Part shown: in pieces, positions 9,169 to 32,807 of the stretch
Position numbering within the stretch: position 1 is the first letter of the stretch
Layout: each line of letters starts with the position of its first letter
Source: a virus
DNA: 36,124 nucleotides
Virus record (IMG/VR): IMGVR_UViG_3300027788_001329
Span: 1-36,124 of that record
Direction: 5' to 3' (one strand)
Translations under genes and position numbers: made by a program
The notes under the pieces: generated by a model
What the model saw: only the letters and a program-made list of their open reading frames with translations
Told to the model about the DNA's origin: nothing
Database searches by the model: none

Positions 9169-9755
9169 GTGTAATGGAAGAATTATTTAACAAGTATGGA
9201 TGCGAAAAGATATGGCACAGCTATAGCGACCTATATGAAGCTGACTTTGAACCAATGCGTAATGATCCTATTAATATTTTAGAAGTAGGAACATTTAGAG
9301 GAGAAAGTATTAATGTATGGTTAGAATATTTTCCCAATGCTACAATTTATACTATTGATACATTTGGTAGAGTTGCACCTAAAGATTTGTCTATGCTAAA
9401 AGATCCAAGAGTAAGTTATGCTAAACTAGATAGTACTGCTTCTGAATGTAACGAACACTTTAAAGCATTAGGACAAAAGTTTGATTTTATTATTGACGAC
9501 GGACTACATACTCCAGAAGGACAACAAAAAACTTTTGACAATCTTATAGAGTTTACAGACACTTACTATGTTGAAGATGTATGGAACTTAGATAAAGTTA
9601 AAATGAGTCATCCTTGGATTAAAAGTCACCCAGATGACTTTACATTAGAAAAATGGAATAAACTTTTAGAGTCAATTAACAAGTACACAGTTACACATCA
9701 CGACTGGCGTTCAAAGAAAAAACAAGATAGTTATATCTTAAAAGTTGTAAAATGA
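9165..9755 (+). CDS. SAM-dependent methyltransferase-like (MycE/cephalosporin-hydroxylase type)
   Basis: This 196-residue protein carries NILEVGTFRGESINVW (motif I), ATIYTIDTF (strand 2 with the acidic residue) and FDFIIDDGLHTPEGQQKTF (strand 4). The IDDG-x-H-x-x-x-x-Q signature is that of the macrolide O-methyltransferase/cephalosporin hydroxylase group, in which the Asp-Asp and His bind a metal. It probably methylates a sugar hydroxyl. It is flanked by another methyltransferase and a GT25-like enzyme with 4-base overlaps on both sides, implying tight translational coupling. Confidence 0.78.
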   Translation: MSVMEELFNKYGCEKIWHSYSDLYEADFEPMRNDPINILEVGTFRGESINVWLEYFPNATIYTIDTFGRVAPKDLSMLKDPRVSYAKLDSTASECNEHFKALGQKFDFIIDDGLHTPEGQQKTFDNLIEFTDTYYVEDVWNLDKVKMSHPWIKSHPDDFTLEKWNKLLESINKYTVTHHDWRSKKKQDSYILKVVK

Positions 9756-10411
9756 AAGCATTTGTAATAGCCATCCCGGGCCATGAAGATAGTCAGCTAC
9801 ATGCTGATACTTGTATTCAATCAGTTATTGATACACAGTCTTGGTTGGACGTTGAAAAGTTTGATGCAATTACACCTACTAATATGTGGGAAGTTGATTG
9901 GAAATGGCCTTACACTAAAAAGAAAATATGTCCTACTACAGGTATGACGCTTAAAGCATACAAAACTTATGACATGGCAAAACGTATTGCGGCCGCAGGT
10001 AGTCATTATAGACTATGGCAAAAAGCAATAGAACTTAATCAACCTATAATGATACTAGAACATGATGCAATTTTTACTAGACAGTTTAAGCCTTTTGAAT
10101 TTGATGGAGGCGCTATTAGTATTAACAATCCTGACCATGCTACGTTTAATTGGAAACTATACAACAAACTAGACGAATCAGGTGAACAAGAAGTTCCTTG
10201 GGTAGCTGATGAAAAGATACCACAAGGGTTGCCTGGCCATAGTGCTTATATTATCAAACCTGCCGCCGCAAAACAAATATGCGAACTACAAGACGTCATT
10301 GGTTGGTGGCCTAATGATGCTATTATGTGCAAGCAACTATGTCCGTGGTTACGTGCATACAAACCATATTTTACAAAAGTACAAGGGATTAAATCAACAA
10401 CAAGCAAATGA
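9752..10411 (+). CDS. GT25-like glycosyltransferase (second copy)
   Basis: This 219-residue protein shares the layout of the protein at 3795: an opening strand AFVIAIPGHEDS, a central GSHYRLWQKAIELNQPIMIL stretch followed by EHDAIF, and a late PGHSAYIIKPAAAKQI helix. The EHD triad is in the same place as the EDD acidic motif of bacterial GT25 LPS transferases. Sequence identity to the other copy is low outside these blocks, so it probably uses a different acceptor. It starts and ends in 4-base ATGA overlaps. Confidence 0.65.
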   Translation: MKAFVIAIPGHEDSQLHADTCIQSVIDTQSWLDVEKFDAITPTNMWEVDWKWPYTKKKICPTTGMTLKAYKTYDMAKRIAAAGSHYRLWQKAIELNQPIMILEHDAIFTRQFKPFEFDGGAISINNPDHATFNWKLYNKLDESGEQEVPWVADEKIPQGLPGHSAYIIKPAAAKQICELQDVIGWWPNDAIMCKQLCPWLRAYKPYFTKVQGIKSTTSK

Positions 10412-11073
10412 TAAATTTACCAGAATATAGAAGCGACAGACACTTACAAAATCCCACAGGCGGAGAGCTTGAATGGGCGAGAGATATTTTATTCAACGAC
10501 TTTACTGAACAATGGAGCAAAGAACATAGCGACACAGTATATGCTATGGAAGGTTATTTTCCACCTAAAGATCGAAAGACAGCAGAAAAGGTTGCTTTTA
10601 TAAACTACTTAAATTTAAAGAATAGAAGCAAATGTAAAATATTAGACATTGGTACAGGTTCAGGACAGTTTGTAAAACTATGTAATACACTAGGCCACAC
10701 TGCAACAGGAACAGAAGTACAAAAACGTTTAGACGATCCTGTATATAAAATACATCAGCACTATAATTTAAACTTGTTTGAACTACAACTTATGCCTAGT
10801 GAATATGTTAAGTTACCTGACACATACGATGTTATAACATTACTACGTACACAGTTTAACGATATACGCACAAGAGAGTTTAAAGAAGCAGACTGGCACT
10901 ACTGGAAAGATAATATGTTTGATTATCTTAACCCCGGTGGACAGATATTTTTAAAAACAAATCTTAAGTTTCAAAAATCAGTTATAGGCGGAATGCAAAC
11001 AGAAATAATGAAAGCATTTGGTAAGCCAATTAAAGGCTTTAACAGCTACACATACTTCTTTGAAAAGACGTAG
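10408..11073 (+). CDS. Class I SAM methyltransferase
   Basis: This 221-residue protein has a clear motif I, KILDIGTGSGQFVKL (about residues 72-86), the strand-2 acid in TGTEVQKR, a strand-4 DVITLLRTQFND and GGQIFLKTN after it. This fits a class I SAM-dependent methyltransferase of the Methyltransf_11/25 type. The N-terminal 70 residues are a variable cap rich in charged residues. The substrate is unknown; context suggests a sugar. It is followed two bases later by the second sulfotransferase. Confidence 0.75.
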   Translation: MINLPEYRSDRHLQNPTGGELEWARDILFNDFTEQWSKEHSDTVYAMEGYFPPKDRKTAEKVAFINYLNLKNRSKCKILDIGTGSGQFVKLCNTLGHTATGTEVQKRLDDPVYKIHQHYNLNLFELQLMPSEYVKLPDTYDVITLLRTQFNDIRTREFKEADWHYWKDNMFDYLNPGGQIFLKTNLKFQKSVIGGMQTEIMKAFGKPIKGFNSYTYFFEKT

Positions 11074-11075
11074 AC

Positions 11076-11723
11076 ATGGCTGTAAGAGTAACACACCCTA
11101 TTAACTGTACATACATACACATTCCTAAAACAGCCGGCAATAGTATTACGTCTTGGCTTAAACAAACTGCAACAACAAAAGTAACAAAAAGAAATCAACA
11201 TGCTACTGTACAAGAAGTACTTGAGGGCAATCATAGTTTAGGTCCTATGCAAATGCAAGATCTTGGATGGAAGTTTTGTGTAGTAAGAAACCCTTGGGAC
11301 TATGTAGTTAGTTGGTATACATTTGAAATAAGACTGTGTAAGCAAAACATATATAGATGTGAAACAGATACTAAATGGAAACATCCTACAAAAGAAAAAT
11401 ATAACCTAAAGTTTCAGCAGATGCGTTTAAAACATTTACAAGATACTGGCATTAAACATTTTATTGAAAATGCACACAATCATAGATACTTACATATGAT
11501 GCAAAGTGAGTGGGCTAGTAGCTGTGATTATGTAATGAAGTTAGAAAACATTAACGAAGATTTTGTAAAAATACAAGAGAAATTAAACTGTTATACACCT
11601 TTGCCAGTTAGAAATAAAACAAAAAGTAGAATACAATATCAAGAATATTACACGTCTGAACTCATTGATACAGTATACAAAATGTATAAAAAAGATATTA
11701 ATACTTACAAATATCAATTTTAA
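11076..11723 (+). CDS. Sulfotransferase-family protein (2)
   Basis: This 215-residue protein has the PAPS-binding loop YIHIPKTAGNSI (residues 13-24) and the 3'-phosphate motif FCVVRNPWDYVVSWYTF (67-83), a closer match to the consensus than the first copy at 6252. The rest is rich in aromatic and basic residues. The predicted reaction is sulfation of a carbohydrate with PAPS. Two sulfotransferases in one island suggest that two positions or two sugars are sulfated, or that one uses a different acceptor. It is the last gene before a 48-base gap with a palindrome, so it may end a transcription unit. Confidence 0.85.
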   Translation: MAVRVTHPINCTYIHIPKTAGNSITSWLKQTATTKVTKRNQHATVQEVLEGNHSLGPMQMQDLGWKFCVVRNPWDYVVSWYTFEIRLCKQNIYRCETDTKWKHPTKEKYNLKFQQMRLKHLQDTGIKHFIENAHNHRYLHMMQSEWASSCDYVMKLENINEDFVKIQEKLNCYTPLPVRNKTKSRIQYQEYYTSELIDTVYKMYKKDINTYKYQF

Positions 11724-11771
11724 ATTTACCATTTCACTAAGTTGTAGTTAACTACTCACATAAATATTAGC
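11724..11771 (+). promoter_or_regulatory. Short intergenic region with perfect palindrome and ATAAATA element
   Basis: This is one of the few gaps in the glycan island. It holds a perfect 12-bp palindrome, GTAGTTAACTAC (11744-11755), and just after it CATAAATA (11759-11766), which fits the NATAAATA late-promoter consensus of marine T4-like phages. The next ATG is at 11772, only 5 bases further on, so transcription from this element would give an almost leaderless message. No T-tract follows the palindrome, so it is not a standard terminator. It could be an operator or a site where transcription is re-started. Confidence 0.35.
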
Positions 11772-12545
11772 ATGAATGTAGTATTAGTCACAGGTGGATT
11801 TGACCCACTACACAGCGGGCATATTGCCTATTTTAAAGAAGCAAAGAAATTAGGCGATCAATTAATCGTTGGCCTAAATTCAGACGAATGGCTTGAGCGT
11901 AAGAAGGGCAAGGCATTTATGCCTTGGAATGAACGCCTATGCATTGTAAACAATTTACAAATGGTAGACGAAGTTTTTACATTTATGGACGATGATGATT
12001 CTGCTATAAATTTTATAAAACAAGTTAAAGCACACTATCCCAACGATAACATAATATTTGCTAATGGCGGCGACCGAACATCTGAAAACATTCCTGAGAT
12101 GGCAGTTGAAGGTGTAGAGTTTGTATTTGGCGTAGGTGGTACAGACAAAAAGAATTCAAGCAGTTGGATACTCAAAGATTGGGAAGCACCTAAGATAGAA
12201 CGTTCATGGGGACACTATAGAGAACTATATCAAGGAGATGGATTTCAAGTTAAAGAACTTGTAATTGCTCCGCATAGTAAACTTAGTATGCAACGACATC
12301 AACATCGTAGCGAAACATGGAACCTTGTAAGCGGAACAGCACATGTTAAGTTAAGCCGACGTCATACTGATCCATTTGACGGTGTAGGTATTTGGAATTT
12401 GCATCATGCTAACCCATTAGATATTCCATCTAACGTTTGGCACCAAGGTGTTAACGATAGTAGTGAGCCAGCTCATATTGTAGAAATATGGAAGGGCGAA
12501 ACAGATAAATTAAGAGAAGAAGATATAGAAAGGTGGGATCCATGA
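11772..12545 (+). CDS. Cytidylyltransferase - mannose-6-phosphate-isomerase-type cupin fusion
   Basis: This 257-residue protein has two domains. Residues 1-130 form a nucleotidyltransferase of the TagD/HldE-C type, with the HIGH-like motif HSGH (14-17) after TGGFDPL and a GLNSDEWLERKKGK segment. Residues 140-257 match the C-terminal cupin of type II mannose-6-phosphate isomerase/GDP-mannose pyrophosphorylase: RSWGHYREL, then QRHQHRSETWNLVSGTA (174-190) with metal-binding His, Gln and Glu, IPSNVWHQ and the terminal EEDIERWD. It probably makes a nucleotide-activated sugar or polyol and epimerises or isomerises it. The exact substrate (glycerol-P, heptose-P or other) cannot be told from sequence. 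Confidence 0.82.
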   Translation: MNVVLVTGGFDPLHSGHIAYFKEAKKLGDQLIVGLNSDEWLERKKGKAFMPWNERLCIVNNLQMVDEVFTFMDDDDSAINFIKQVKAHYPNDNIIFANGGDRTSENIPEMAVEGVEFVFGVGGTDKKNSSSWILKDWEAPKIERSWGHYRELYQGDGFQVKELVIAPHSKLSMQRHQHRSETWNLVSGTAHVKLSRRHTDPFDGVGIWNLHHANPLDIPSNVWHQGVNDSSEPAHIVEIWKGETDKLREEDIERWDP

Positions 12546-13222
12546 AAGTATTCGTAGGATATGACACACGAGAAGATATGGCTTATCAAGTATGTAAGCA
12601 TAGCATTTTAGCTAGAAACAAAGACGTTGATGTACGTCCACTGAAACAGCAAGAGTTGAGAGACACTGGCTGGTACAATCGTCCTATTGATAAACTAGCA
12701 TCAACAGAGTTTACGTTTACTAGATTCCTTATTCCAGAGCTTGCTAACTTTAAAGGTTGGGCTGTGTTTATGGATTGTGATATGATCCTTACAACAGATA
12801 TTAAAGAGTTATTTGATCAAGCAGACGACAAGTATGCAGTAATGTGTGTTAAGCATGACTATAAAGTTAAAGAAGAATTTAAAATGGATGGACAAAAACA
12901 AACAATTTATCCACGCAAAAATTGGTCAAGTGTAATGTTATTCAACTGTGGACATCCTAGTAATGCTAGACTTGATCAAGATATGGTAAATGAAAAAGAA
13001 CTTAACGGAGCATACTTCCATAGATTTAGTTGGTTAGAAGACAGTGAAATTGGTGAACTAGATCATACTTGGAACTACTTAGTAGGGGTATATAACGATA
13101 TTGAAAAACCAAAACTAATCCATTATACAGAAGGCGGACCTTGGTTTGAAAATTATAGAGACTGTGAATTCCATGCTGAATGGAAAACAGAATTATTTAA
13201 TATGATGGAAGATGAGGTATAA
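12542..13222 (+). CDS. GT-A glycosyltransferase with DCD motif
   Basis: This 226-residue protein starts at the ATG at 12542 (ATGA overlap); the GTG at 12533 is less likely. It begins with MKVFVGYDTREDMAYQV, a frequent opening of a bacterial GT8-like group, followed by STEFTFTRFLIPEL, the metal site WAVFMDCDMIL (DCD), KNWSSVMLFNC and LDHTWNYLVG, ending in PKLIHYTEGGPWF. All blocks of the GT-A fold appear present. It probably extends the same glycan. The stop is followed six bases later by the KpsS-like paralogue B. Confidence 0.75.
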   Translation: MKVFVGYDTREDMAYQVCKHSILARNKDVDVRPLKQQELRDTGWYNRPIDKLASTEFTFTRFLIPELANFKGWAVFMDCDMILTTDIKELFDQADDKYAVMCVKHDYKVKEEFKMDGQKQTIYPRKNWSSVMLFNCGHPSNARLDQDMVNEKELNGAYFHRFSWLEDSEIGELDHTWNYLVGVYNDIEKPKLIHYTEGGPWFENYRDCEFHAEWKTELFNMMEDEV

Positions 13223-13227
13223 TATAT

Positions 13228-14091
13228 ATGGATAGGTATATAAAAAAACCAGACGACACTGAACTACCTAAGATGTTAATGCTAAATGGTGATGACGAGA
13301 TTATGAAACATTGGCAACATGGTACTAACGCTTTGGTAATTGATAGAAAACAGATATCAAGTAAAATTAGTGAAAGTCCTTGGCCTAATGATATTCCTGT
13401 AGCGTTTCGTAGTATGACCAAACGCAAAGAAATATGGAAGTGTTGGGAAACAGGTAGACCGTTTTATTATATCGATAACGGATACATGGGCAACTTAATG
13501 AAGAAGAAAAAGTATTATAGAGTTGTAAAAAATAATATCCAACACACAAAAATAAAACCAAACATGCCTGCTGATAGATATCGTGAGTTGTGTCAGTTTG
13601 CACCATACATGAATTATTATGGTAAAAAAGCTGTACAAGATGGAGCCATCTTACTAGTAACACCAAGCGAAAAACCTTGTCAATTTTATAACATTGATAA
13701 AAATACATGGCTTAAAGAAACAAAAACAGAACTTCGTAAATATACAGACCGTCCTATTATTATTAGAGAAAAAGGTTTGCGTCCAAACAGAATTAAAGAT
13801 AATAGTGTTGCCGCTCAATGTGCAAGAGAACAAATTCATTCTGTAGTTACATATCAAAGTATGGCCGCACTAGAAGCAATGCATTATGGTATTCCTGCAT
13901 TTACAACTGCACTTAGTTGTGTTGACAGTGTTGTTAATCGTAACTTAGCTGACATAGAGAATCCTAGCTATCCAGCTGAAGATGAATTTTTAAATTTACT
14001 ACACTATCTTGCTTATTGCCAATATACCCTAGATGAAATTAATAGAGGTGATGCACTAAGTATGATTGAAAGGATGAAATTATATGACTAG
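13228..14091 (+). CDS. KpsS-like capsule-type glycosyltransferase, paralogue B
   Basis: This 287-residue protein shares its C-terminal half with the genes at 1498, 14084 and 15860. Shared blocks are RPIIIREKG, a VVTYQSMAALEAMHYGIPAF segment, the LADIENPSYP motif and a HYLAYCQYTLDEINRGDAL tail. The N-terminal half has YYIDNGYMGN as in paralogue A (HLDNGYIGN). In KpsS/KpsC-type enzymes, the R-x-H/E-K and S-x-x-x-x-E-A-x-x-x-G-x-P segments line the nucleotide-sugar pocket; here the H of RxHP is replaced by E (REK), as in paralogue A. TATAAT lies four bases upstream of the ATG, but without a matching -35 it is not called a promoter. Confidence 0.62.
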   Translation: MDRYIKKPDDTELPKMLMLNGDDEIMKHWQHGTNALVIDRKQISSKISESPWPNDIPVAFRSMTKRKEIWKCWETGRPFYYIDNGYMGNLMKKKKYYRVVKNNIQHTKIKPNMPADRYRELCQFAPYMNYYGKKAVQDGAILLVTPSEKPCQFYNIDKNTWLKETKTELRKYTDRPIIIREKGLRPNRIKDNSVAAQCAREQIHSVVTYQSMAALEAMHYGIPAFTTALSCVDSVVNRNLADIENPSYPAEDEFLNLLHYLAYCQYTLDEINRGDALSMIERMKLYD

Positions 14092-16710: not shown

Positions 16711-17931
16711 ATGATAATAGAGAAACCATCTACGTGTGAAGACTGTCTGACCTATTTACTAGGCAAGTGTAAAGTATCGATAGACGATAAACCTATACTA
16801 GTAAGTTTGAATAAGCAGTTGAATAGAAAAGTTGCATTAACTGATCGGCAATTTGCATTACTAAAAGGCAAACTGTTAAACTACTCTCGAGTATGGTTTG
16901 ACGAAGATGTTGATATAGAGACTGTTGTTAATAATTTAAAGTATCCGTTAAGAGAAATAGATAGATCGCATTGGCTTAAAATTCTTACATATAACGACGA
17001 GGATCTTCTTGGAATTAGATTCCCTTTTAATAAAAAAGTCATTGATAGAATTGAAGAGTTACGTAATATGGAGCCTAAGAATAATCTAAAGTATAAAGAT
17101 AATACTCATTACTTCCATCTTACACCAAAGAACGTTTTTGGATTAGTTGAAATAGCAAAACGGTTTGAAACTAAATTTGTTATACATGATGAAATTTTAG
17201 AAATATATAATCAACTAATAGAGTATGAGAAGAATTGGGCTGACTATGTGCCAGGCATATATGATTACAAAGTTTGTAATATTCCTGATGTAGCAATCGA
17301 AAACTTAAAAAATGAACTAGGCGATTGTAATAAAGATACGTTATCTTTATATTATGATAGGAGATACTTGTACGGGTTAGAAGAATTTAATTACGACTTA
17401 GTTGATCAAAGTATTAAGAAGCATACTATTATAGCTCAGCATATTATTAAAAGAGATAAGTCAGTTGTATTAATTAATAATAAATCTGTTAACTTAAATG
17501 ATCTATTGTCAGCAATATACGAAATTGGTAGACTGCCAATGTTAGTTATTCTTACTCCTAATACTGCACATGATACATTATTTGAAATACATAATGTACT
17601 TAAAAATATTATTCCTTCTGAAGAAATGGCTGTATTATTTAGAAAAGATGGCACTGATCTGTTTAATGAGTATGTTAAAACACAAAAACTTAATAATATG
17701 GTTGACATTAACACTAAAGTAGTGTATATTAGTAGTATAAAGTTACCTAAGCCATTATTACAATCAGATTGGCATGCAAGCTGTAGTTTATCTTTTGATA
17801 GCTCTAAGTTAACATACAATCATGTTAGTGGATATGTAGACACATTTGATCTACGTATTACATATGACGAAATTGGAATTGGTGGACTTTGGGACAGAAC
17901 TGAGCGGAGATACATACGTGCGAACATGTAA
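16711..17931 (+). CDS. Unrecognised 406-aa phage protein upstream of uvsW
   Basis: I do not recognise a domain in this 406-residue protein. It has an N-terminal CxxC pair within STCEDCLTYLLGKC (8-21; three Cys), which could bind a metal, and a C-terminal half rich in beta-branched residues with a VILINNKSVNL/LPMLVILTPN region that could be an alpha/beta domain. It is transcribed from the strong promoter P1 and its end overlaps the uvsW start by 14 bases. The position suggests a partner of UvsW in recombination or replication restart, but this is only inference from position. The CxxC plus helicase neighbour could suggest a nucleic-acid-binding adaptor. Confidence 0.75.
   Translation: MIIEKPSTCEDCLTYLLGKCKVSIDDKPILVSLNKQLNRKVALTDRQFALLKGKLLNYSRVWFDEDVDIETVVNNLKYPLREIDRSHWLKILTYNDEDLLGIRFPFNKKVIDRIEELRNMEPKNNLKYKDNTHYFHLTPKNVFGLVEIAKRFETKFVIHDEILEIYNQLIEYEKNWADYVPGIYDYKVCNIPDVAIENLKNELGDCNKDTLSLYYDRRYLYGLEEFNYDLVDQSIKKHTIIAQHIIKRDKSVVLINNKSVNLNDLLSAIYEIGRLPMLVILTPNTAHDTLFEIHNVLKNIIPSEEMAVLFRKDGTDLFNEYVKTQKLNNMVDINTKVVYISSIKLPKPLLQSDWHASCSLSFDSSKLTYNHVSGYVDTFDLRITYDEIGIGGLWDRTERRYIRANM
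17906..17920 (+). promoter_or_regulatory. Ribosome binding site that sets the uvsW start
   Basis: GGAG at 17906-17909 is followed by 8 bases and GTG at 17918. Upstream in-frame starts (TTG 17846, ATG 17864) have no such site, and the GTG start gives an N-terminus that aligns in length with T4 UvsW. Confidence 0.6.
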
Positions 17932-19381
17932 ACTAGTTATTGAAGATGAAGTAAATATTAAGCTAGAAGGACTAGAGGTAGATGTACGGAGAAAACTTGC
18001 AAGTGCATTAAAGTTTGAAGTACCTTATGCTCGATACATGCCGCAATATAAATTAGGCCGCTGGGATGGTAAAGTTGCTTTCTTTGGTATAGGCGGCACC
18101 GGTTATGTTAATCACCTTGACGTAGTGCAAGAAGTCCTTGCTAAAAATAATGTAAAAATAGTTGACATTGACGACCGAAGACATCCTATTGATTTAAAGT
18201 TTACACATGTTACAGAACGTTATTGGGCAGACCAAGGTGTATGTTGGCCCGAAGGACATCCTGTAGCAGGTACAGAAATTATCCTGCGAGATTATCAAGT
18301 TGAAGCTATTAATAACTTCCTTGACAATCCACAGAGCTTGCAACAGATCGCGACTGGAGCAGGCAAGACTATCACCACTGCGACACTAAGTCACATGACA
18401 GAAAGATACGGGCGTAGCCTAGTTATCGTCCCCAATAAGAGTCTCGTCGAGCAAACGGAAGAGGACTACATTAATTGTAATCTGGATGTGGGTGTGTACT
18501 TTGGTGATAGGAAACAATTAGGTAAGACTCATACTATTTGTACTTGGCAAAGTTTAAATATCTTAGATAAGAAAACAAAAGATGGCTCAGCAGTATTGTC
18601 GTTAGCAGAGTTTTTAGAAGGCGTGAGTACTATTATTATTGACGAAGTACACCAAGCAAAAGCAGAAGTACTTAAAAATTTGTTAACACGTAACTTACGT
18701 AATGCTCCAATTCGTTGGGGACTAACAGGAACAGTACCTAAAGAACAGTTTGAATTTCAAAGTATACATGCTAGTTTAGGTCCTGTAATTGGAAACATTA
18801 CAGCAAAAGAGTTACAAGACAAAGGTGTGTTATCTAACTGCCATGTTAATGTGTGCCAGTTAATTGATACAGTAGCACACAGCGATTATCAATCAGAATT
18901 AAAATATCTTGTTTCTAACGAAGCAAGAATAGAATATATGTCAAAACTGTTAACTAAGATATCACAAGCCGGTAATACACTGATACTAGTTGATAGAATC
19001 TCAGCAGGGCAGATGCTTGCTGAGTTAATACCTGATAGCACTTTCATAAGCGGAAGTGTTAAAGTAAAAGACCGGAAAGAAACCTATGATACAATTAAAA
19101 AAGGTACCAATGAAGTGATTATTGCAACCTATGGTGTTGCGGCTGTTGGTATTAATATCCCTAGGATCTTTAATCTTGTGCTTATTGAGCCGGGCAAGAG
19201 TTTTGTTCGAGTAATACAATCAATTGGTAGAGGCGTAAGAAAGGCTGAAGACAAAGACTTCGTACAAATATGGGACTTGACATCAACATGCAAGTACGCG
19301 AAGCGACATCTAACTCAACGTAAGAAGTTTTACAAAGAGGCAGAGTATCCCTTTACAATCGAAAAAATAGACTGGAATTAA
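17918..19381 (+). CDS. uvsW: UvsW-type recombination DNA helicase
   Basis: This 487-residue protein (GTG start) is a superfamily 2 helicase that in T4 drives branch migration and fork regression and ends origin-dependent initiation by unwinding R-loops. The N-terminal domain includes YMPQYKLGRWDGKVAFF, which matches T4's RFNPRFRYGNWDGRIRLL. Motif Q region LRDYQVEAI is followed by Walker A ATGAGKT (145-151), Walker B DEVH (242-245), motif III GLTGT and motif VI QSIGRGVRK near 424-432. Length is close to T4 UvsW. It overlaps the preceding gene by 14 bases and is part of the P1 transcription unit. Confidence 0.94.
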   Translation: MRTCKLVIEDEVNIKLEGLEVDVRRKLASALKFEVPYARYMPQYKLGRWDGKVAFFGIGGTGYVNHLDVVQEVLAKNNVKIVDIDDRRHPIDLKFTHVTERYWADQGVCWPEGHPVAGTEIILRDYQVEAINNFLDNPQSLQQIATGAGKTITTATLSHMTERYGRSLVIVPNKSLVEQTEEDYINCNLDVGVYFGDRKQLGKTHTICTWQSLNILDKKTKDGSAVLSLAEFLEGVSTIIIDEVHQAKAEVLKNLLTRNLRNAPIRWGLTGTVPKEQFEFQSIHASLGPVIGNITAKELQDKGVLSNCHVNVCQLIDTVAHSDYQSELKYLVSNEARIEYMSKLLTKISQAGNTLILVDRISAGQMLAELIPDSTFISGSVKVKDRKETYDTIKKGTNEVIIATYGVAAVGINIPRIFNLVLIEPGKSFVRVIQSIGRGVRKAEDKDFVQIWDLTSTCKYAKRHLTQRKKFYKEAEYPFTIEKIDWN

Positions 19382-19387
19382 ATATAT

Positions 19388-19894
19388 ATGCAAATATTAA
19401 CACTCGAAAACGAAGCACTAGACCTAAACACTTTACCAGATCAAATCGAAGAAGACATACGCTTTAGCGTATTAGACAATTCAGATAAAGAAAATCCTGA
19501 TTTCTTTTTTATTCCTTTAATTTTCTTAGAGTCGTTTAGTTCTCCAGGTGTTGTTTTAAAAGTAGGCGAAACAGAAATACAAATGCCAATTGATTGGCAC
19601 ATTGCTGTAGGTTGTAGCGAAAGTGGAAATGACTTAGAAGTGCTTCCACTAACAAGTATAGGAGACAGAGGATTTGAAGCATTCTTGTTTAATCCAATGG
19701 CCAGCTTCAAACCTGAGTTTGGAGAAGTTAAGGTAATTAATTATTACAATGATGTTAAATGGTATTTTCCAAAGATGCGTAACGGTCAATTATTAACCGT
19801 TCCTATGGAAACTAAAAAAGAACCGTTGTGTGCCTTTTTTATTAAGGACATCACAAGACAAACAGAAGTGATTAAATATGGAGAGTTATTGTAA
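19388..19894 (+). CDS. Conserved-type hypothetical phage protein
   Basis: This 168-residue protein has no domain I recognise. It is acidic at the N-terminus (EALDLNTLPDQIEEDIRF) and has a central beta-rich part with a DWHIAVGCSESGNDLEVLPL segment followed by ISIGDRGFEAF-like residues and FNP. This looks like a compact beta-barrel, perhaps a nucleic-acid- or protein-binding adaptor. It begins six bases after uvsW and ends just before the cupin gene, so it belongs to the same transcription unit. Confidence 0.7.
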   Translation: MQILTLENEALDLNTLPDQIEEDIRFSVLDNSDKENPDFFFIPLIFLESFSSPGVVLKVGETEIQMPIDWHIAVGCSESGNDLEVLPLTSIGDRGFEAFLFNPMASFKPEFGEVKVINYYNDVKWYFPKMRNGQLLTVPMETKKEPLCAFFIKDITRQTEVIKYGELL

Positions 19895-19895
19895 A

Positions 19896-20243
19896 ATGAA
19901 AGCAGGAAAAGTTTGGGGTCAAACGGAATTGATCCATGCAAACGGCGTACTAGAGTTTCACCGTATTGAATACAAAGCAGGATTTAAATGTTCAGAACAT
20001 GAACACCAATTTAAATGGAACGGATTCTTTGTTGAATCGGGCAAGATGATTGTTCGTGTTTGGCAAGATGATCAAGATGGTCTCGTAGATGAAACTATTC
20101 TTGAAGCAGGGGATTTTACTCAAGTTAAACCGGGTAAGATCCATCAGTTCGAAGGTCTCGAAGATGGAGTAGCCTTTGAACTTTATTGGGCAGAATTTAA
20201 CCACAATGATATTGTGCGTAGATCTGTCGGAACAAAAGTATAA
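19896..20243 (+). CDS. Single-domain cupin
   Basis: This 115-residue protein starts at the ATG at 19896, with GGAGAG ten bases upstream; an in-frame ATG at 19878 lies inside the previous gene. The fold is a cupin: EYKAGFKCSEHEHQFKWNGF (motif 1, two His plus Trp/Asn) and PGKIHQFEGLEDGVAFELYW (motif 2 with His). The metal-ligand pattern HEH...H matches sugar-isomerase or regulatory cupins. It has no second domain. It lies just before the YhhQ-type transporter gene. The substrate is unknown. Confidence 0.7.
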   Translation: MKAGKVWGQTELIHANGVLEFHRIEYKAGFKCSEHEHQFKWNGFFVESGKMIVRVWQDDQDGLVDETILEAGDFTQVKPGKIHQFEGLEDGVAFELYWAEFNHNDIVRRSVGTKV

Positions 20244-20254
20244 CAGGAGAACAT

Positions 20255-21016
20255 ATGTTAACAAAACTTTTAGAAGGTGTAGACAAGGCGCTTGTCAGGA
20301 ATCTTGTGATTCTACACACCCTAGTAATTGCAGTAAGTAATTACTTGGTAACAATTAGATTTGATCTATTCCCGGGTGCAGAGTTGCCCTTATTTGGATC
20401 ATTTCCACTAGCGGCGGCGGCGTTTACATTTCCGATCGTTGTAATTGCAACTGACCTTACAGTACGTATGGTAGGTAAGCAAGCAGGTAGAGCTGTTGTA
20501 GCAATGGCTATTATTCCTGCTATTGTAGTATCGGTACTTGTGCTATTAGCACTAGGTGACGAACATGCATATAGAGTAGGTATAGCATCAGGTGTAGCAT
20601 ATGCAGTAGGTACAATGCTTGATGTATATGTGTTCCAACACATTCGTGAGCGTATGAGTGCATGGTGGATTGCACCAGCAGTATCAACTATTGCGGCAAA
20701 CATTATTGATACATATGCTTTCTTCTACACAGCATTTTATCCTGCACCTTGGGTTGCAGAGGTAGCATTAAATAATACACTTACAAAAATTGTTATAGGA
20801 CTAATTGTATTCCTTCCAGCATACGGTATATTGTTAAAATGGATGCAAGGCAAAGTAGTTGTAGAAGCACCTAAGCCAGTAGCTAAAAAGACTACTAAAG
20901 TTAAAGCTAAAGCACCAGCTAAAACTGGAGGCAAAAAAGCAGGCGAGCTAAGTATGACTCCAACTGCTATTAAGCAACGTGAAGCACGAGCTAAAGCAAA
21001 AGCGAAAAAGGTATAA
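20255..21016 (+). CDS. yhhQ: YhhQ/VUT-family queuosine-precursor transporter with Lys/Ala-rich tail
   Basis: This 253-residue inner-membrane protein aligns over its first ~200 residues with E. coli YhhQ, which imports 7-deazaguanine (preQ0/preQ1). Matching blocks are LHTLVIAVSNYLV, FTFPIVVIATDLTVRM, MLDVYVFQHIRE, WWIAPAVSTIAANIIDT and FLPAYGILL; there are about six transmembrane segments (near 15-35, 52-72, 82-100, 108-126, 140-160, 176-196). The last ~50 residues are unlike YhhQ: a Lys/Ala/Pro-rich, histone-like tail. The start follows a strong AGGAG. Phages use such transporters to supply precursors for 7-deazaguanine in DNA or tRNA; no deazaguanine-DNA gene is seen here. Confidence 0.9.
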   Translation: MLTKLLEGVDKALVRNLVILHTLVIAVSNYLVTIRFDLFPGAELPLFGSFPLAAAAFTFPIVVIATDLTVRMVGKQAGRAVVAMAIIPAIVVSVLVLLALGDEHAYRVGIASGVAYAVGTMLDVYVFQHIRERMSAWWIAPAVSTIAANIIDTYAFFYTAFYPAPWVAEVALNNTLTKIVIGLIVFLPAYGILLKWMQGKVVVEAPKPVAKKTTKVKAKAPAKTGGKKAGELSMTPTAIKQREARAKAKAKKV

Positions 21017-21019
21017 ATG

Positions 21020-21043
21020 CGTTGGGTAATCTTATACCCAACG
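21020..21043 (+). promoter_or_regulatory. Perfect 9-bp hairpin over a TTG start
   Basis: CGTTGGGTA (21020-21028) and TACCCAACG (21035-21043) form a 9-bp stem with a 6-base loop. The TTG start of the next gene (21022) lies inside the left arm. No run of T follows, so it is not a standard terminator. An 11-codon ATG frame (21017-21052) runs across it in a different frame. Confidence 0.4.
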
Positions 21044-21294
21044 AAGCACTAATATACGAGCGAGCCAACGGTGTTGTGTTCGCTCGTTATCGTGACCCGC
21101 CACACAATAAACAACCTAGATGGGTTATTGGTGGTGAACCAAATGCTACAGCAAGAGCATTAGGAATTGTAAGTTATGACGAATGGAAAGAAGTAATGTC
21201 AATTGCAGAAAAAGATCCAAACGTTAAAAAACAACTTGACAGATTAATGATTATGTATTATACTGTTAAAGATGAATTAAAGGAAAACGAATGA
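21022..21294 (+). CDS. Small hypothetical protein with TTG start inside a hairpin
   Basis: This 90-residue protein has no recognisable domain. No ATG occurs in frame near the N-terminus; the TTG at 21022, with AAGG about ten bases upstream, is the best start. The protein begins with a NLIPNEALIYERANGVVFAR segment, then PRWVIGGEP and a helical C-terminus with KQLDRLMIMYYTVKDEL. The start is inside a hairpin, which would reduce translation unless the stem is opened. It overlaps kdsA by 4 bases, so it may couple to the sugar operon. Confidence 0.6.
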   Translation: MGNLIPNEALIYERANGVVFARYRDPPHNKQPRWVIGGEPNATARALGIVSYDEWKEVMSIAEKDPNVKKQLDRLMIMYYTVKDELKENE

Positions 21295-22064
21295 GAATTA
21301 TAGCAGGCCCATGCCAACACGAGACATTAGCACAGTCAGCAGAAATTGCTGAAGAGTGCAAACGTGTATGTGACATGCACGGAATTGAATACATATTCAA
21401 AGCAAGCTATGATAAAGCTAATCGCAGTAGCGAACAAGGCAAACGAGGTATTGGCTTAGGCCCCACACTAGAAGATTTTCGTACATTAAAAAAACAATAC
21501 AATATACAAACGTTAACTGATGTACACGACGAATTACAAGTTGAACAAATTATGTATGCATATAGTGATGCAGTAGATGTATTACAAATTCCTGCATTCT
21601 TATGTAGACAAACTGATTTAATTAAAGCGGCTTGTGCTACAGATAAAATTGTTAATATTAAAAAAGGACAGTTCCTTGCACCGTGGGACATGACTGGCAT
21701 ATTAACTAAAACAGAAGGTGCTAAAGAAGTTTGGATTACCGAACGAGGAACAAGTTTTGGATATAACACATTGGTTGTCGACTACACCGGTCTACTTTAC
21801 ATGTTGGATAATTTTAGCGAGCCATTGGTTCTTGATTGTACACATGCTGTACAAAAGCCCGGGGGACTTGGTGGCTCGTCAGGCGGTAATCGTAACTACG
21901 TGCCTGGCGTGGCTCGCTCTGGCAGTGCTCTTGGTATTTCATCGTTCTTCTTAGAAGTCCATAAAGACCCTGATAATGCACCTAGTGACGGTCCAAATAT
22001 GTTACACTTAGATGACTTCGAACAAGTTGTAAACGATATAGTTAAGTATAATTATGAACGATAA
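21291..22064 (+). CDS. kdsA: 3-deoxy-D-manno-octulosonate 8-phosphate synthase
   Basis: KdsA condenses phosphoenolpyruvate with arabinose-5-phosphate to give Kdo-8-phosphate. This 257-residue protein has all hallmark blocks: FKASYDKANRSS (36-47), LTDVHDELQ (75-83), QIPAFLCRQTDL (99-110), SFGYNTLVVDYTG (155-167), CTHAVQKPGG (183-192) and LEVHKDPDNAPSDGP (221-235). An AGPC motif with Cys8 at the N-terminus, plus His185, Glu222 and Asp233, match the four ligands of the metal-dependent class of KdsA; the metal-free E. coli enzyme has Asn in place of that Cys. Length is close to normal (about 265-285). It overlaps hemE by 11 bases. Confidence 0.95.
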   Translation: MRIIAGPCQHETLAQSAEIAEECKRVCDMHGIEYIFKASYDKANRSSEQGKRGIGLGPTLEDFRTLKKQYNIQTLTDVHDELQVEQIMYAYSDAVDVLQIPAFLCRQTDLIKAACATDKIVNIKKGQFLAPWDMTGILTKTEGAKEVWITERGTSFGYNTLVVDYTGLLYMLDNFSEPLVLDCTHAVQKPGGLGGSSGGNRNYVPGVARSGSALGISSFFLEVHKDPDNAPSDGPNMLHLDDFEQVVNDIVKYNYER

Positions 22065-23031
22065 ATTTCAAAATGCATGTAATAGGGCAGAACAATCAAC
22101 ACCTCCAATTTGGATGATGCGACAAGCGGGTAGATACCAAAAAGGTTACATGGCAATGAAAGAAGATTGGTCATTTGAACAAATGTGTAAGCTACCTCGT
22201 ATAGCCGCAAAAGTTGCTATGCTACCAATAGAACAATTTGATTTTGATATTGCAATATTGTTTAGTGATATATTATTCCCAATCGAAGGGCTTGGCGTTC
22301 CTTTAAAGTTTGATCCTGGCCCACAGTTTGAATGGACTATTAACGAAGACAACTATAAAGATCACTCCAATATTGAATTAGCAATTAAGCATATGGAGTT
22401 CCAAGCAAGAGCAGTAACAACAACAAGAGAAATGTTGCCTTCTAATAAAAGTCTTATTGGCTTTGTTGGTGGCCCTTGGACATTATTAAATTATGCTACA
22501 GGTAAAAATCCTAAGCTAAGTTTAAAATGGAAAACACAATACTTGCGTGAAGTTATTGTTCCTGTACTATATAGAAATATAAATTTGCAATTAGATGCAG
22601 GTGCTGAAAAAGTAATGATATTAGATAGTGGTGTAGGCAATATGAGTGAGCAGTATTTTAAGAAAGAATACGTTAACTTATTACAACCACTAATACAAAC
22701 TGACACAGGATATTACACACAACATTTAAATGCAAACTGCTTACCTACATTATATAAAATGGGATGGGCAGGCATAGGAGTTGACAGTATTGTTGACATT
22801 ACTAAAACATTTAAGAAATACAAGGACGGATTTATACAAGGCAATTTTGATGAAAAACTTTTATTGTTACCTAAAGAAGAATGTCGATCGCACATTGAAG
22901 ATTTTTGTAACACAATGCAAACAGTTGACCATACTGGTTGGGTTTGTGGACTTGGACATGGCATAACAAAAACTACTCCGGAAGAAAATGTAAAAATGTT
23001 CGTAGATATGATTAGAGAGAGATTTAAATGA
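22054..23031 (+). CDS. hemE: Uroporphyrinogen decarboxylase
   Basis: HemE converts uroporphyrinogen III to coproporphyrinogen III in heme and chlorophyll synthesis. This 325-residue protein aligns end to end with bacterial HemE: PIWMMRQAGRYQKGYM (18-33, Arg23), AILFSDILFPIEGLG (67-81, Asp72), IGFVGGPWTLLNYATG, a VMILDSGVGN segment, GFIQGNFDEKLL and the terminal GLGHGITKTTPEENV (299-313, His302). The catalytic Asp and the substrate-binding Arg and His are all present. HemE is usually about 350 residues; the missing length is in short loops. It overlaps kdsA by 11 bases and kdsB by 4. The adjacent Kdo genes have no metabolic link to it. Confidence 0.93.
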   Translation: MNDKFQNACNRAEQSTPPIWMMRQAGRYQKGYMAMKEDWSFEQMCKLPRIAAKVAMLPIEQFDFDIAILFSDILFPIEGLGVPLKFDPGPQFEWTINEDNYKDHSNIELAIKHMEFQARAVTTTREMLPSNKSLIGFVGGPWTLLNYATGKNPKLSLKWKTQYLREVIVPVLYRNINLQLDAGAEKVMILDSGVGNMSEQYFKKEYVNLLQPLIQTDTGYYTQHLNANCLPTLYKMGWAGIGVDSIVDITKTFKKYKDGFIQGNFDEKLLLLPKEECRSHIEDFCNTMQTVDHTGWVCGLGHGITKTTPEENVKMFVDMIRERFK

Positions 23032-23690
23032 AAACAGCAATACTAATACCAGCACGTTTAGAAAGTACACGTTATCCAAATAAAATGTTAGTTGAACTAG
23101 ATGGTAAGCCGTTAATTCAACGAGTATATGAAGCATGTAAAGAAACAGTTTACGACACGTATGTTGTTACAGACAGCGAAGAAATAGCAAGCCTAGTTCC
23201 TAATTCTATTATGACTAAAGACGCAACTAACGGTACTGAAAGATGTGCTATGGCCGCAGAAGGATTAGATTATGATTACTTTGTAAACGTACAAGGTGAT
23301 ATGCCTGATGTTACTGAGGATATGATTTATAATGTAGTAGAGCAATTAAAAGAATATGAAGTGTCAACTTTATATACTGACATGAGAGAAGAGGACCAAG
23401 ATAAACCTGATAGTGTTAAACTAATTAAATCAAATAACAAAGTGTTATGGATGGGTAGAGGAATGACAGGATACGGAAATTGGCATTTAGGTATATACGG
23501 ATATGCTAAAGTTGCACTGAGCATGTACAGAAATTTAGATCTGCACTTAGAAGAAGCCACTGAAAAACTAGAGCAACTACGTTGGTTAAAGAACGGTATT
23601 GATATTGGTTGCGCCTGGACTAAATTTGATGGTGTGGAAATAAACACCGAAGAAGATATTCATCTTTGGAATGACAAAAATAATGCTTGA
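23028..23690 (+). CDS. kdsB: CMP-Kdo synthetase (3-deoxy-manno-octulosonate cytidylyltransferase)
   Basis: KdsB couples Kdo to CTP to give CMP-Kdo, the donor for Kdo transferases. This 220-residue protein has PARLESTRYPNK (8-19, the CTP-binding loop), TNGTERCA (67-74), YFVNVQGDMP (84-93), NWHLGIYGY (151-159), EKLEQLRWLKNG (179-190) and DGVEINTEEDI (201-211). Bacterial KdsB has about 248 residues; the central dimerisation loop is shorter here. The related sialic-acid synthetases lack this block set, so KdsB is the better call. It is the last gene of the kdsA-hemE-kdsB trio and its stop lies right at promoter P2. Confidence 0.93.
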   Translation: MKTAILIPARLESTRYPNKMLVELDGKPLIQRVYEACKETVYDTYVVTDSEEIASLVPNSIMTKDATNGTERCAMAAEGLDYDYFVNVQGDMPDVTEDMIYNVVEQLKEYEVSTLYTDMREEDQDKPDSVKLIKSNNKVLWMGRGMTGYGNWHLGIYGYAKVALSMYRNLDLHLEEATEKLEQLRWLKNGIDIGCAWTKFDGVEINTEEDIHLWNDKNNA

Positions 23691-25912: not shown

Positions 25913-26431
25913 ATGGAACTAGAACTTGTTATAGCACCAGACGAGAGATTAGATACAGCAGTTACTAAAGAATGGGATTTTGATAATCCACAGTACGATG
26001 CTAAAGAACTAAGAGCCTCAATGATTGCAGTGATGAAACAGAACAGAGGCATTGGGCTATCTGCAAATCAAGTAGGCATTATGGACGCAAGATGTTTTGT
26101 GTTTCAAAACAACCAAGCAAATAATGACTATGAAAGAAACGTATTAGCATTACATCCGTCATACGAAATAGTTGAAGATGAACCTGAAATTGATATGTGG
26201 GAAGGGTGTCTAAGTTTTCCGGGTATTACCTTACAAATTAAACGCCCATCGCGTATTAAAGCTAAGTGGAAAGGTGTTGACGGCAAAGAGTACGGTGATG
26301 AACTTTTTGGATATCAAGCACGTTGCTTTATGCATGAGTTAGATCATTTAGATGGTATAAGCATGAACGAACATGTGTCGCCCAAAATATGGAGAGAAGC
26401 TGTAGCCAATGCAGAAGAAAAGAAAACTTAA
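25913..26431 (+). CDS. def: Peptide deformylase
   Basis: Peptide deformylase removes the formyl group from the N-terminal Met of new proteins. This 172-residue protein has all three motifs: GIGLSANQVG (46-55), EGCLSFPG (97-104, Cys99 ligand) and HELDHLDG (141-148, two His ligands and the catalytic Glu). Motif spacing is standard. AGGAG lies 10-14 bases before the ATG. Phage deformylases are known to be active and may speed maturation of specific host or phage proteins; which one is unknown here. The gene is followed by overlapping small ORFs. Confidence 0.95.
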   Translation: MELELVIAPDERLDTAVTKEWDFDNPQYDAKELRASMIAVMKQNRGIGLSANQVGIMDARCFVFQNNQANNDYERNVLALHPSYEIVEDEPEIDMWEGCLSFPGITLQIKRPSRIKAKWKGVDGKEYGDELFGYQARCFMHELDHLDGISMNEHVSPKIWREAVANAEEKKT

Positions 26432-31258: not shown

Positions 31259-31369
31259 ATGATGGAAGTTGTTGGCAGTGACATTCCAGATGCGGAAAAA
31301 ATAATAGTGGTAAATCAATATATAGATATACTAAAAGACTTAGAGAAGGCAATTAATGGACAAGACTAG
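31259..31369 (+). CDS. Small ORF before gp41
   Basis: This 36-residue ORF begins with a double ATG (MMEVVGSDIPDAEKIIVVNQ then YIDILKDLEKAINGQD) and is acidic and helical. It overlaps the gp41 start by 14 bases. A longer form from GTG at 31208 would be 53 residues, but its start lies upstream of the predicted transcription start, so the ATG form is preferred. No homologue is recognised. It could couple translation into gp41. Confidence 0.5.
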   Translation: MMEVVGSDIPDAEKIIVVNQYIDILKDLEKAINGQD

Positions 31370-32807
31370 ACAGAATACAGATTACGGATACGACATACAA
31401 AAACTATATTTAGAGATGATGCTAACAGATGCAGAGTCTTTTGTTAGGTGTCAGGCTGTATTTGATCCTAGTGCATTCGACAGACGCTTAGAAGCTAGTG
31501 CGGCATTCTTAAACACATACGTTAGTGAGCATAATGCATTGCCTACATTTGAAATGATTAATGCGGCAACTAAAATAGATTTAAAAAATCCAGGTGATCT
31601 AAAAGAAGAACACTATGATTGGTTACTTGCAGAGTTTGAAACATTTAGTAGACACAAAGCACTAGAAGCCGCAATACTTAAAAGTGCAGACTTACTTGAA
31701 AAAGGTGAGTATGGTCCAGTAGAAGATCTAGTTAAGAAGGCTGTGCAAATTGGTTTACAAAAAGACTTAGGTACAGATTACTTTAACGATCCAAGAGCTA
31801 GACTAGAAGCAATTAAAAGTAATAACGGACAAGTAAGCACAGGCTGGGCCGCTATTGATAAGAAACTATTTGGTGGATTCAACAGAGGCGAGCTTAATAT
31901 ATTTGCAGGTGGATCAGGTGCAGGTAAGAGTTTATTCTTAGCTAACCTAGGAGTTAACTGGGCATTACAAGGTATGAACGTTTTGTATCTAACATTAGAG
32001 CTTAGTGAAAACTTAGTTAGTATGCGTGTTGATAGTATGATAACAGATGTACCAAGTCGCGATGTGTTTAAGAACATTGACGATGTTGAAATGAAAGTCA
32101 AGATGATTGGCAAGAAGTCAGGTGCATTCCAAGTTAAGTATATGCCTTCAGGCAAGACACCTAATGATATAAGAAGTTATATTAAAGAGTATGAAATTAA
32201 AACAGGCAAGAAAGTAGACGTACTACTGTTAGACTATTTAGATTTGCTTATGCCCAACGGTGCAAAGGTAAGTGCAGAGAACTTGTACATCAAAGACAAG
32301 TACGTATCAGAAGAGTTACGTAACTTAGCAATGGAATTAAACTGTGTATTTGTTACAGCCGCACAGTTGAACCGTGGTGCAGTGGAAGAAATAGAATTTG
32401 ATCACTCGCACATATCAGGTGGACTTAGTAAGATACAAACAGCAGACAACGTGTTTGGTATCTTTACAAGTAGAGCAATGCGTGAACGTGGACGTTATCA
32501 GTTACAGTTAATGAAGACACGTAACAGTGGCGGAGTAGGACAAAAGATCGATCTAGGATTTGATATTAACACATTACGTATCATGGACTTAGATGAAGAT
32601 GACGATGATAGCGGAAATACAAGTGGATACACAAGTAGTGGTGGCCAAAACACTAACAGTATTGTAAGTAATCTTAGACGTCAGAACACACAACAACCTG
32701 ATCTAAATGCAGATCCAGGAGACGGTGAAACAGTTAAGAAAGTTAAAGCGGATGTTGATTCAACTAAACTTAGATCTTTTATTAATAACCTTGGAAGCAA
32801 TGACTAA
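31356..32807 (+). CDS. 41: Replicative DNA helicase (gp41/DnaB-like)
   Basis: gp41 is the hexameric 5'-3' replicative helicase that works with primase gp61. This 483-residue protein (T4 gp41: 475) has the DnaB-type C-terminal ATPase: FAGGSGAGKSLF (Walker A GGSGAGKS, 185-192), LYLTLELSENLVSMRV, the Walker B strand VDVLLLDYLDLL (287-298), VFVTAAQLNR and the FDHSHISGGLSKIQTADNVF segment with a Ser/Gly turn. The N-terminal domain is helical as in the family. A Ser/Asp/Gly-rich linker (about 425-465) near the C-terminus is probably disordered. It ends in a TAATG overlap with the next gene. Confidence 0.95.
   Translation: MDKTRQNTDYGYDIQKLYLEMMLTDAESFVRCQAVFDPSAFDRRLEASAAFLNTYVSEHNALPTFEMINAATKIDLKNPGDLKEEHYDWLLAEFETFSRHKALEAAILKSADLLEKGEYGPVEDLVKKAVQIGLQKDLGTDYFNDPRARLEAIKSNNGQVSTGWAAIDKKLFGGFNRGELNIFAGGSGAGKSLFLANLGVNWALQGMNVLYLTLELSENLVSMRVDSMITDVPSRDVFKNIDDVEMKVKMIGKKSGAFQVKYMPSGKTPNDIRSYIKEYEIKTGKKVDVLLLDYLDLLMPNGAKVSAENLYIKDKYVSEELRNLAMELNCVFVTAAQLNRGAVEEIEFDHSHISGGLSKIQTADNVFGIFTSRAMRERGRYQLQLMKTRNSGGVGQKIDLGFDINTLRIMDLDEDDDDSGNTSGYTSSGGQNTNSIVSNLRRQNTQQPDLNADPGDGETVKKVKADVDSTKLRSFINNLGSND

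Follow-up and report, generated by a model that had tools for sequence, protein, structure and literature searches.

The viral record IMGVR_UViG_3300027788_001329, a stretch of 36,124 bases that is called the window below, carries on its forward strand a gene (20255-21016, +) for a membrane transporter of the YhhQ family. Its presence raises the questions of what a phage would do with such a protein and why the protein ends in a long, strongly basic tail. In Escherichia coli, YhhQ was shown genetically to be required for the salvage of 7-cyano-7-deazaguanine (preQ0) and 7-aminomethyl-7-deazaguanine (preQ1), and it acts in the queuosine modification of tRNA (excerpts of PMC5372724). DpdA puts preQ0 into DNA, and 7-deazaguanines protect phage DNA from restriction (excerpts of PMC6884629). 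Because of this salvage role, the chemistry of DpdA and the gene linkage seen in related viral records, the window protein is probably an accessory importer that tops up the precursor of a phage 7-deazaguanine DNA-modification pathway, mostly one without recognisable QueC.

The transporter gene and its predicted topology

The open reading frame (ORF) starts with ATG, encodes 253 amino acids and follows an AGGAG ribosome-binding site at about 20245..20249 (+), a consensus match only. With this start and ribosome-binding site, a conserved core and family scores above curated cutoffs, it is on sequence grounds a genuine gene. The earlier note on this DNA had called the product a YhhQ-type transporter, and the family searches bear this out: the protein scored 94.3 bits with TIGR00697 (cutoff 50.95) and 73.1 bits with PF02592 (Vut_1; cutoff 27.2, E=4e-20), and its residues 17-195 are 37% identical to E. 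coli YhhQ (direct BLASTP, E=6e-39). The score with NF008406, the equivalog of the E. coli-type 7-cyano/7-aminomethyl-7-deazaguanine transporter, was 143.1 bits, below the cutoff of 252, and therefore the protein is not filed in the E. coli-type subgroup. Its viral family is PHROG 4899, whose function is unknown.

The search found 132 viral relatives, of which the best 80 loci were kept, ranked by a query that included the tail, so that tailed members are perhaps over-represented. The transporter core (residues 1-196; 20255..20842, +) is nearly invariant across 39 aligned proteins and has six predicted membrane helices. In the AlphaFold2 model, six long helices (residues 11-33, 51-73, 75-99, 103-133, 137-161 and 167-200) are followed by a segment of low confidence and then a short last helix; the predicted local distance difference test (pLDDT) is mostly 70-90 in the core. 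The six transmembrane segments expected of the QPTR family are present in this predicted model. Loops 2 and 4 are basic and loops 1, 3 and 5 more acidic; because these charges follow the positive-inside pattern, a six-helix topology with a cytoplasmic C-terminus is predicted.

The PDB sequence search with the window protein gave no meaningful match, and the fold search with its model returned nothing at E <= 0.001, only weak ECF (energy-coupling factor) transporter rows. A first scan of cellular genomes with the viral YhhQ alignment yielded 166 stretches and no relatives. The best matches of a second scan with a mixed alignment were at most 47% identical, and therefore the host could not be named.

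Genes of the 7-deazaguanine pathway in related records

The case for a role in DNA modification comes from the genes that accompany YhhQ in its relatives. FolE (GTP cyclohydrolase I) is encoded in 22 of the 80 loci and lies immediately upstream of YhhQ in 20 of them. A FolE-YhhQ pair is seen in two distinct gene neighbourhoods. A DpdA-like protein of 500 residues with a GDSGGFQ motif is found in 9/80 loci, and 7/80 encode a QueE-like radical SAM protein. The records behind these loci were searched more widely, 50 of them for QueF and the DpdA-like protein and 33, including one Vibrio phage record, for FolE, QueD, QueC and QueE-like genes. The DpdA-like profile matched 9 of the 50 records, and FolE was found in 16, QueE-like genes in 10 and QueD in 5 of the 33. 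All three YhhQ-carrying records longer than 200 kb (G001-G003) hold FolE, QueD, the QueE-like and the DpdA-like gene, in line with the suggestion of the earlier note that partners may lie elsewhere in the genome; no QueC was found in these three.

Two of the records show how the genes are arranged. G002 is collinear with the window: 30 of the 50 window ORFs have matches there, which are confined to 43-69.5 kb and keep the window order in 27 of 29 steps. Its YhhQ lies at 55.8 kb, QueD at 158.8 kb, the DpdA-like gene at 216 kb, FolE at 224.0 kb and the QueE-like gene at 224.5 kb, so that the distance from YhhQ to a partner gene reaches about 170 kb. At the other extreme, G047 (28 kb) holds the DpdA-like gene, FolE, YhhQ, QueD and the QueE-like gene all within about 11 kb. 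The QueE-like set reached 98.6% hhalign probability against the QueE of phage Vid5 and falls below the NCBIfam QueE cutoffs.

The DpdA-like protein escapes the usual domain collections. No Pfam or PHROG match was found in the two members scanned, a weak Pfam match to tRNA-guanine transglycosylase (TGT) appeared in 3 of 46 members (best E 0.046), and with the NCBIfam DpdA model NF041059 (cutoff 200 bits) L075 scored 15.6 bits and L072 and L013 gave no hit; it is therefore named DpdA-like. Its structure was predicted from only 6 sequences, with a mean pLDDT of 54.5. In the Foldseek search with this model, ranks 1-36 were all TGT-family proteins and rank 37 was the DNA preQ0 insertase DpdA (7ui4), and VIA aligned 280 residues at 5.0 Å with Z 14.4, each of the 50 rows listed bearing a TGT-family title. 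Within the motifs DSGG, LD.P and FD.AS.F, all 46 members agree at the D, S, G, G, L, D, P, D, A, S and F columns; the Asp residues are presumably the catalytic ones of TGT. The protein of the relatives is thus modelled with a TGT fold and carries TGT/DpdA-type motifs. The 46-member alignment was derived from 85 loci, with L092 dropped (reverse-strand) and 82 passing the length filter; 44 sequences less than 85% identical were chosen, and 43 of these were joined by L072, L013 and L075. As a profile it matched no PDB sequence, and the fold comparison was used instead; the hhalign profile comparison gave 4.8% for nt-1 DpdA2 and 0.3% for Vid5 DpdA.

At least 596 confirmed stretches in viral contigs belong to this family, examples being L075:3606-5108, L083:8017-9807 and L216:7995-9617 (PA5oct gp168). 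Isolates with members include the PA5oct-like jumbo phages of Pseudomonas, the Sinorhizobium phage Phosso and Vibrio phage 2.275.O, where the protein carries the annotation 'hypothetical protein'. Among 80 loci centred on the DpdA-like gene, FolE is present in 40, QueE-like genes in 35, QueD in 2, YhhQ in 1 and QueC in none, and 50 of the 80 contain FolE or a QueE-like gene.

For the substrate, the pathway in this particular phage and the product in its DNA, we infer the following course. The gene would be expressed by the phage in its host and yield an inner-membrane importer of 7-deazaguanine precursors (preQ0, perhaps preQ1), which would top up the pool for a phage-encoded DNA modification. 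FolE, QueD and the QueE-like enzyme would make 7-carboxy-7-deazaguanine (CDG), and the divergent DpdA-like transglycosylase would swap the base into phage DNA. With no recognisable QueC in the longest relatives, imported preQ0, or preQ0 from the host QueC, may fill the missing step, and the value of an importer would be greatest where QueC is missing.

Several observations weigh against this reading or qualify it. The 36-kb window, a fragment, gave no match for DpdA-like, QueE-like or FolE genes, in agreement with the earlier note, which had seen no such partners there. Among 20 control records selected by DnaB rather than by YhhQ, many of them short, the DpdA-like gene was found in two and YhhQ in one. 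When seven long records (>=199 kb) were pooled, YhhQ was present in 3, the DpdA-like gene in 5, FolE in 6, QueE-like genes in 6, QueD in 5 and a QueC-like gene in 1. The DpdA-like gene occurs in 3/3 of the long records with YhhQ vs 2/4 of those without; the long records alone therefore prove no association, and gene linkage carries the case. YhhQ is also rare near DpdA-like genes generally, as the single case among 80 loci indicates, and is therefore best regarded as an accessory of the pathway that one clade has retained. QueD was not found in several records that have both the DpdA-like gene and FolE, such as G006 and G012. The idea that import replaces QueC fares poorly in its strict form: G055 has a weak QueC-like match and no YhhQ, G063 has neither, and this comparison does not yet support strict replacement. 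One window-type relative (L025/G022) has a QueC-like PP-loop gene (L180:1033-1692; PF06508 29.9 bits, cutoff 22, partial) directly before a NodU-type carbamoyltransferase gene, and no such gene was seen at the corresponding position of the window. The QueC profile behind the long-record and 80-locus counts was built from 3 sequences and the QueD profile from 5.

The importer might instead feed the queuosine modification of host tRNA and help phage translation. This would match the work of E. coli YhhQ in tRNA queuosine salvage (excerpts of PMC5372724), and 41 of the 50 records, mostly short fragments, lack a DpdA-like match, while G062 (199 kb) has none of the pathway. We nevertheless hold it unlikely. 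The DpdA-like gene is present in every YhhQ record above 200 kb, QueF was found in none of the 50 YhhQ-carrying records, and among the 11 tRNAs of G002 there is none for Tyr, His, Asn or Asp with a GUN anticodon. Nor did any of 13 long records of relatives match the Pfam TGT family (PF01702). As a detector of DpdA, that Pfam model was rejected; it missed the divergent DpdA-like family in some of the same records and so is not evidence of absence. Because of the partner genes in the >200-kb relatives, the missing QueF and the lack of GUN-anticodon tRNAs, DNA modification is favoured over tRNA queuosine, two uses of the precursor between which the earlier note had not chosen. Somewhat less probable again is a shift of substrate, by which the viral clade would import another purine or a vitamin and the family name would mislead. 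The first periplasmic loop of the viral clade is unlike the E. coli type and the NF008406 score fell short, which would fit such a shift; yet FolE sits directly upstream in a quarter of the loci, five genes are linked in G047, and 48 columns do not vary when the window protein and L048 are aligned with the YhhQs in phage 7-deazaguanine clusters.

The basic C-terminal tail

The variable tail (residues 201-253; 20855..21013, +) has an isoelectric point of about 10.8. Its residues 205-253 include 14 Lys, 2 Arg, 11 Ala, 4 Pro and 2 acidic residues, and the Lys/Ala/Pro-rich stretch described in the earlier note is thus real. A helix is predicted near its end (residues 237-250; 20963..21004, +; block pLDDT 69-75). 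No Pfam domain was found in the window tail. The core motif of AT-hooks is RGRP; it is absent from the window tail, and RGRK is present in the tails of some relatives.

For comparison, the tail was taken as all residues past the FLPAYG.LL motif in 81 loci (L001-L081), 80 of which have a complete ORF end; L037, with a cut ORF, was excluded. The 45 distinct viral tails measure 8-59 residues, the window tail being the longest, and 25 of them have at least 25 residues and 20 fewer. At least five Lys among the last 15 residues were counted in 23 of the 25 long tails, and a net charge of +4 or more likewise in 23/25; the short tails are basic as well. Of the other ORFs in these loci that reach 100 residues, only 25 of 805 pass the same Lys criterion, 11 of the 25 belonging to one reverse-strand ORF cluster that is possibly spurious. 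A Lys-rich end is present in none of 81 cellular-type YhhQs, 80 from genome contigs and one, resembling E. coli yhhQ, from a record that is labelled as phage. Since 23/25 long viral tails stand against 25/805 other ORFs and 0/81 cellular-type proteins, the Lys-rich bias is not due to chance and belongs to this viral clade. The statement of the earlier note that the tail is unlike any known YhhQ therefore holds against these 81 proteins and the cultured-phage YhhQs of 2.275.O, Vid5 and PSTCR4, which have no basic tail, and fails within the viral clade itself, where such tails recur.

Two trivial sources of the tail were rejected. A frameshift or read-through artefact does not fit a frame that is open to a single stop, with relatives that have in-frame basic tails of their own, and a general habit of the proteins of these phages does not fit the count of 25/805. 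The only other sizeable forward-strand family with Lys-rich ends is that of a peptide deformylase (window 25913-26431), with eight sequences of its cluster in relatives ending so.

Tail presence changes readily. The proteins of L005 and L007, with cores about 93% identical to that of the window, have only 19 and 16 residues past the core. On a core tree of 45 rows, with tail columns excluded and a tail counted from 24 residues, tail presence requires at least 12 changes, 5 of them forced by well-supported (starred) branches, and the tail has therefore often been gained, lost or swapped. Shuffled tail labels gave a mean of 14.9 changes, and 46 of 500 shuffles were as low as 12. No conserved motif runs across the viral tails, and a VLKDEV-type linker recurs in many of them in the 39-protein alignment. 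In-frame tandem repeats make up part of some tails, 18-bp x 3.4 in L003 and 15-bp x 4.6 in L052; the window tail has a weak 6-bp repeat only. The earlier note had set beforehand that absence of the tail from close relatives would tell against its view of the tail, and this was found in part, in L005 and L007.

That view was of a histone-like, DNA-binding tail that could anchor the transporter to phage DNA or a partner; in a fuller form, the partner might be DpdA, and the precursor would be handed on directly. A strongly basic tail on the predicted cytoplasmic side, recurrently basic in long-tailed relatives and absent from cellular-type YhhQs, is what such a tether would need. As an important working part, however, it found no support in the comparison and is improbable: nearly half of the distinct viral tails are short, well-supported branches force repeated changes, near relatives lack the tail, no sequence is conserved and some tails are tandem repeats, and tail-less YhhQs occur in loci that hold DpdA-like genes (L013, L053, L054, L071 and L072). 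Least credible of all is a salvage-coupled hypermodification, in which the pathway would stop at CDG, the phage would bring its own preQ0 importer, and the tail would hold DNA or the DpdA-like enzyme close to the membrane, channelling the imported base straight into phage DNA. Without use of preQ0, these genes would instead yield DNA with a base derived from CDG. A nearly neutral origin of the tail is a real possibility, if short of an even chance. Here Lys/Ala codon slippage past the last helix would create a low-complexity extension, tolerated because cytoplasmic positive charge favours membrane topology; the in-frame repeats, the scatter on the tree (12 changes vs the shuffled mean) and the basic short tails are consistent with it. 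Yet few other proteins of these loci share the Lys bias of the long tails, the VLKDEV-type linker recurs, and the repeat in the window tail is weak. For the role of the tail, we infer a cytoplasmic, mostly disordered appendage that would be dispensable for the job of the transporter core. Evolution would have added, removed or remade it time and again, in part through the expansion of in-frame repeats. Probably it either binds weakly to some polyanion, be it membrane lipid, ribosome or nucleic acid, or has next to no effect on fitness. Such a basic appendage under loose or almost no selection is favoured over a dedicated DNA tether.

Gene surroundings, phage placement and known systems

Upstream of YhhQ lie a UvsW-like helicase (17846..19381, +; collinear in G002 at 85% identity), a phrog_11279 protein and, directly adjacent, a cupin-domain protein (19878..20243, +; cluster 3, in 52 loci). 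Directly downstream is a 90-residue protein of unknown family (21022..21294, +; cluster 7, in 42 loci), followed by KdsA (21291-22064, just above the KDO8P_synth cutoff), a uroporphyrinogen-decarboxylase-family protein (22054-23031; PF01208 E=1.5e-65, below the hemE cutoff) and a KdsB-like cytidylyltransferase (23028-23690). The order helicase, phrog_11279 protein, cupin, YhhQ, 90-residue protein, KdsA is repeated in many relatives; KdsA and the KdsB-like gene are likewise kept in many, and no counterpart of the uroporphyrinogen-decarboxylase-family gene was found in G002. The KdsA and KdsB-like genes suggest synthesis of CMP-Kdo (cytidine monophosphate-3-deoxy-D-manno-octulosonate) by the phage, and from them the host is probably Gram-negative.

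The DnaB-like replicative helicase (31356..32807, +) places the phage: it is 55% identical to that of PA5oct-like jumbo phages, the closest isolates, 51% to Atu_ph07, 48% to Phosso, 45% to XaC1 and 43% to Vibrio phage 2.275.O, and relatives at 76-78% sit on records of 262 kb and 358 kb. Given these large-phage relatives, the window is most likely a fragment of a large genome. No Rfam RNA, riboswitches included, reached the gathering threshold in the window, and it has no tRNAs. The window also encodes a NodU-type carbamoyltransferase (PF02543; 30204-31226) and a RfaE/HldE-like nucleotidyltransferase domain fused to a mannose-6-phosphate-isomerase-like cupin (11772-12545). In L048, several tandem genes downstream of YhhQ (9582-13722) resemble fatty-acid desaturases by eye, with His-rich motifs.

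Phage YhhQs are already known. Phages with YhhQ have been noted, without correlation with a group, and the QueC-less phage Bipper might use CDG (excerpts of PMC6884629). Transporters of preQ0/preQ1 were described within 7-deazaguanine clusters of phages Vid5 (excerpts of PMC6266253) and EC151 (excerpts of PMC8310023), queuosine genes in T4-like marine viruses (excerpts of PMC7198788), and deazaguanine incorporation is predicted for some jumbo phages, a general mention in the excerpts of a 2026 review (PMC13282480). New here are the large uncultured clade, its tails and the unannotated DpdA-like family. Within the incomplete literature covered, nothing was found on the clade or its tails, or on a DpdA role of the PA5oct-type protein, and this supports novelty only weakly. 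The import of precursors, so far known from a few cultured phages, would be common in a large uncultured clade. A broad DpdA-like family, with FolE and QueE-like genes nearby, also goes unseen by Pfam, by PHROGs and at the NCBIfam cutoffs. Should the modification be real, phages would allow a test of importing against synthesising a DNA base, and a likely DNA-modification gene could be added to the annotation of jumbo phages such as PA5oct.

Compared with known systems, the window protein belongs to the same family as the chromosomal E. coli YhhQ (COG1738/QPTR; 221 residues), which ends about 18 residues past the aligned core; in an E. coli-like record this end is near-neutral. The DpdA-like protein of the relatives resembles DpdA and DpdA2 in its predicted TGT fold and TGT/DpdA-type motifs and differs in lying far below the NCBIfam DpdA cutoff. 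PA5oct-like jumbo phages have the closest isolate counterpart of this protein (38%), and PA5oct has a QueE-like gene near it, as in the relatives; unlike the window, they gave no YhhQ match in a protein search of the phage collection. In Pantoea phage Vid5, Enterobacter phage EC151, Providencia phages PSTCR4/7 and Vibrio phage 2.275.O, YhhQ stands beside FolE, QueD, QueE and QueC or Gat-QueC, together with DpdA (in part from excerpts of PMC6266253 and PMC8310023). The clusters of the siphophages Vid5 and PSTCR4 are of the archaeosine type, and phage 2.275.O has the order QueF-YhhQ-QueC-FolE-QueD, with a DpdA-like gene nearby. The cultured-phage YhhQs in the searched collection are only 34-36% identical to the window protein, whose own clade consists of large uncultured phages, mostly with no recognisable QueC and with pathway genes that can be scattered over the whole genome.
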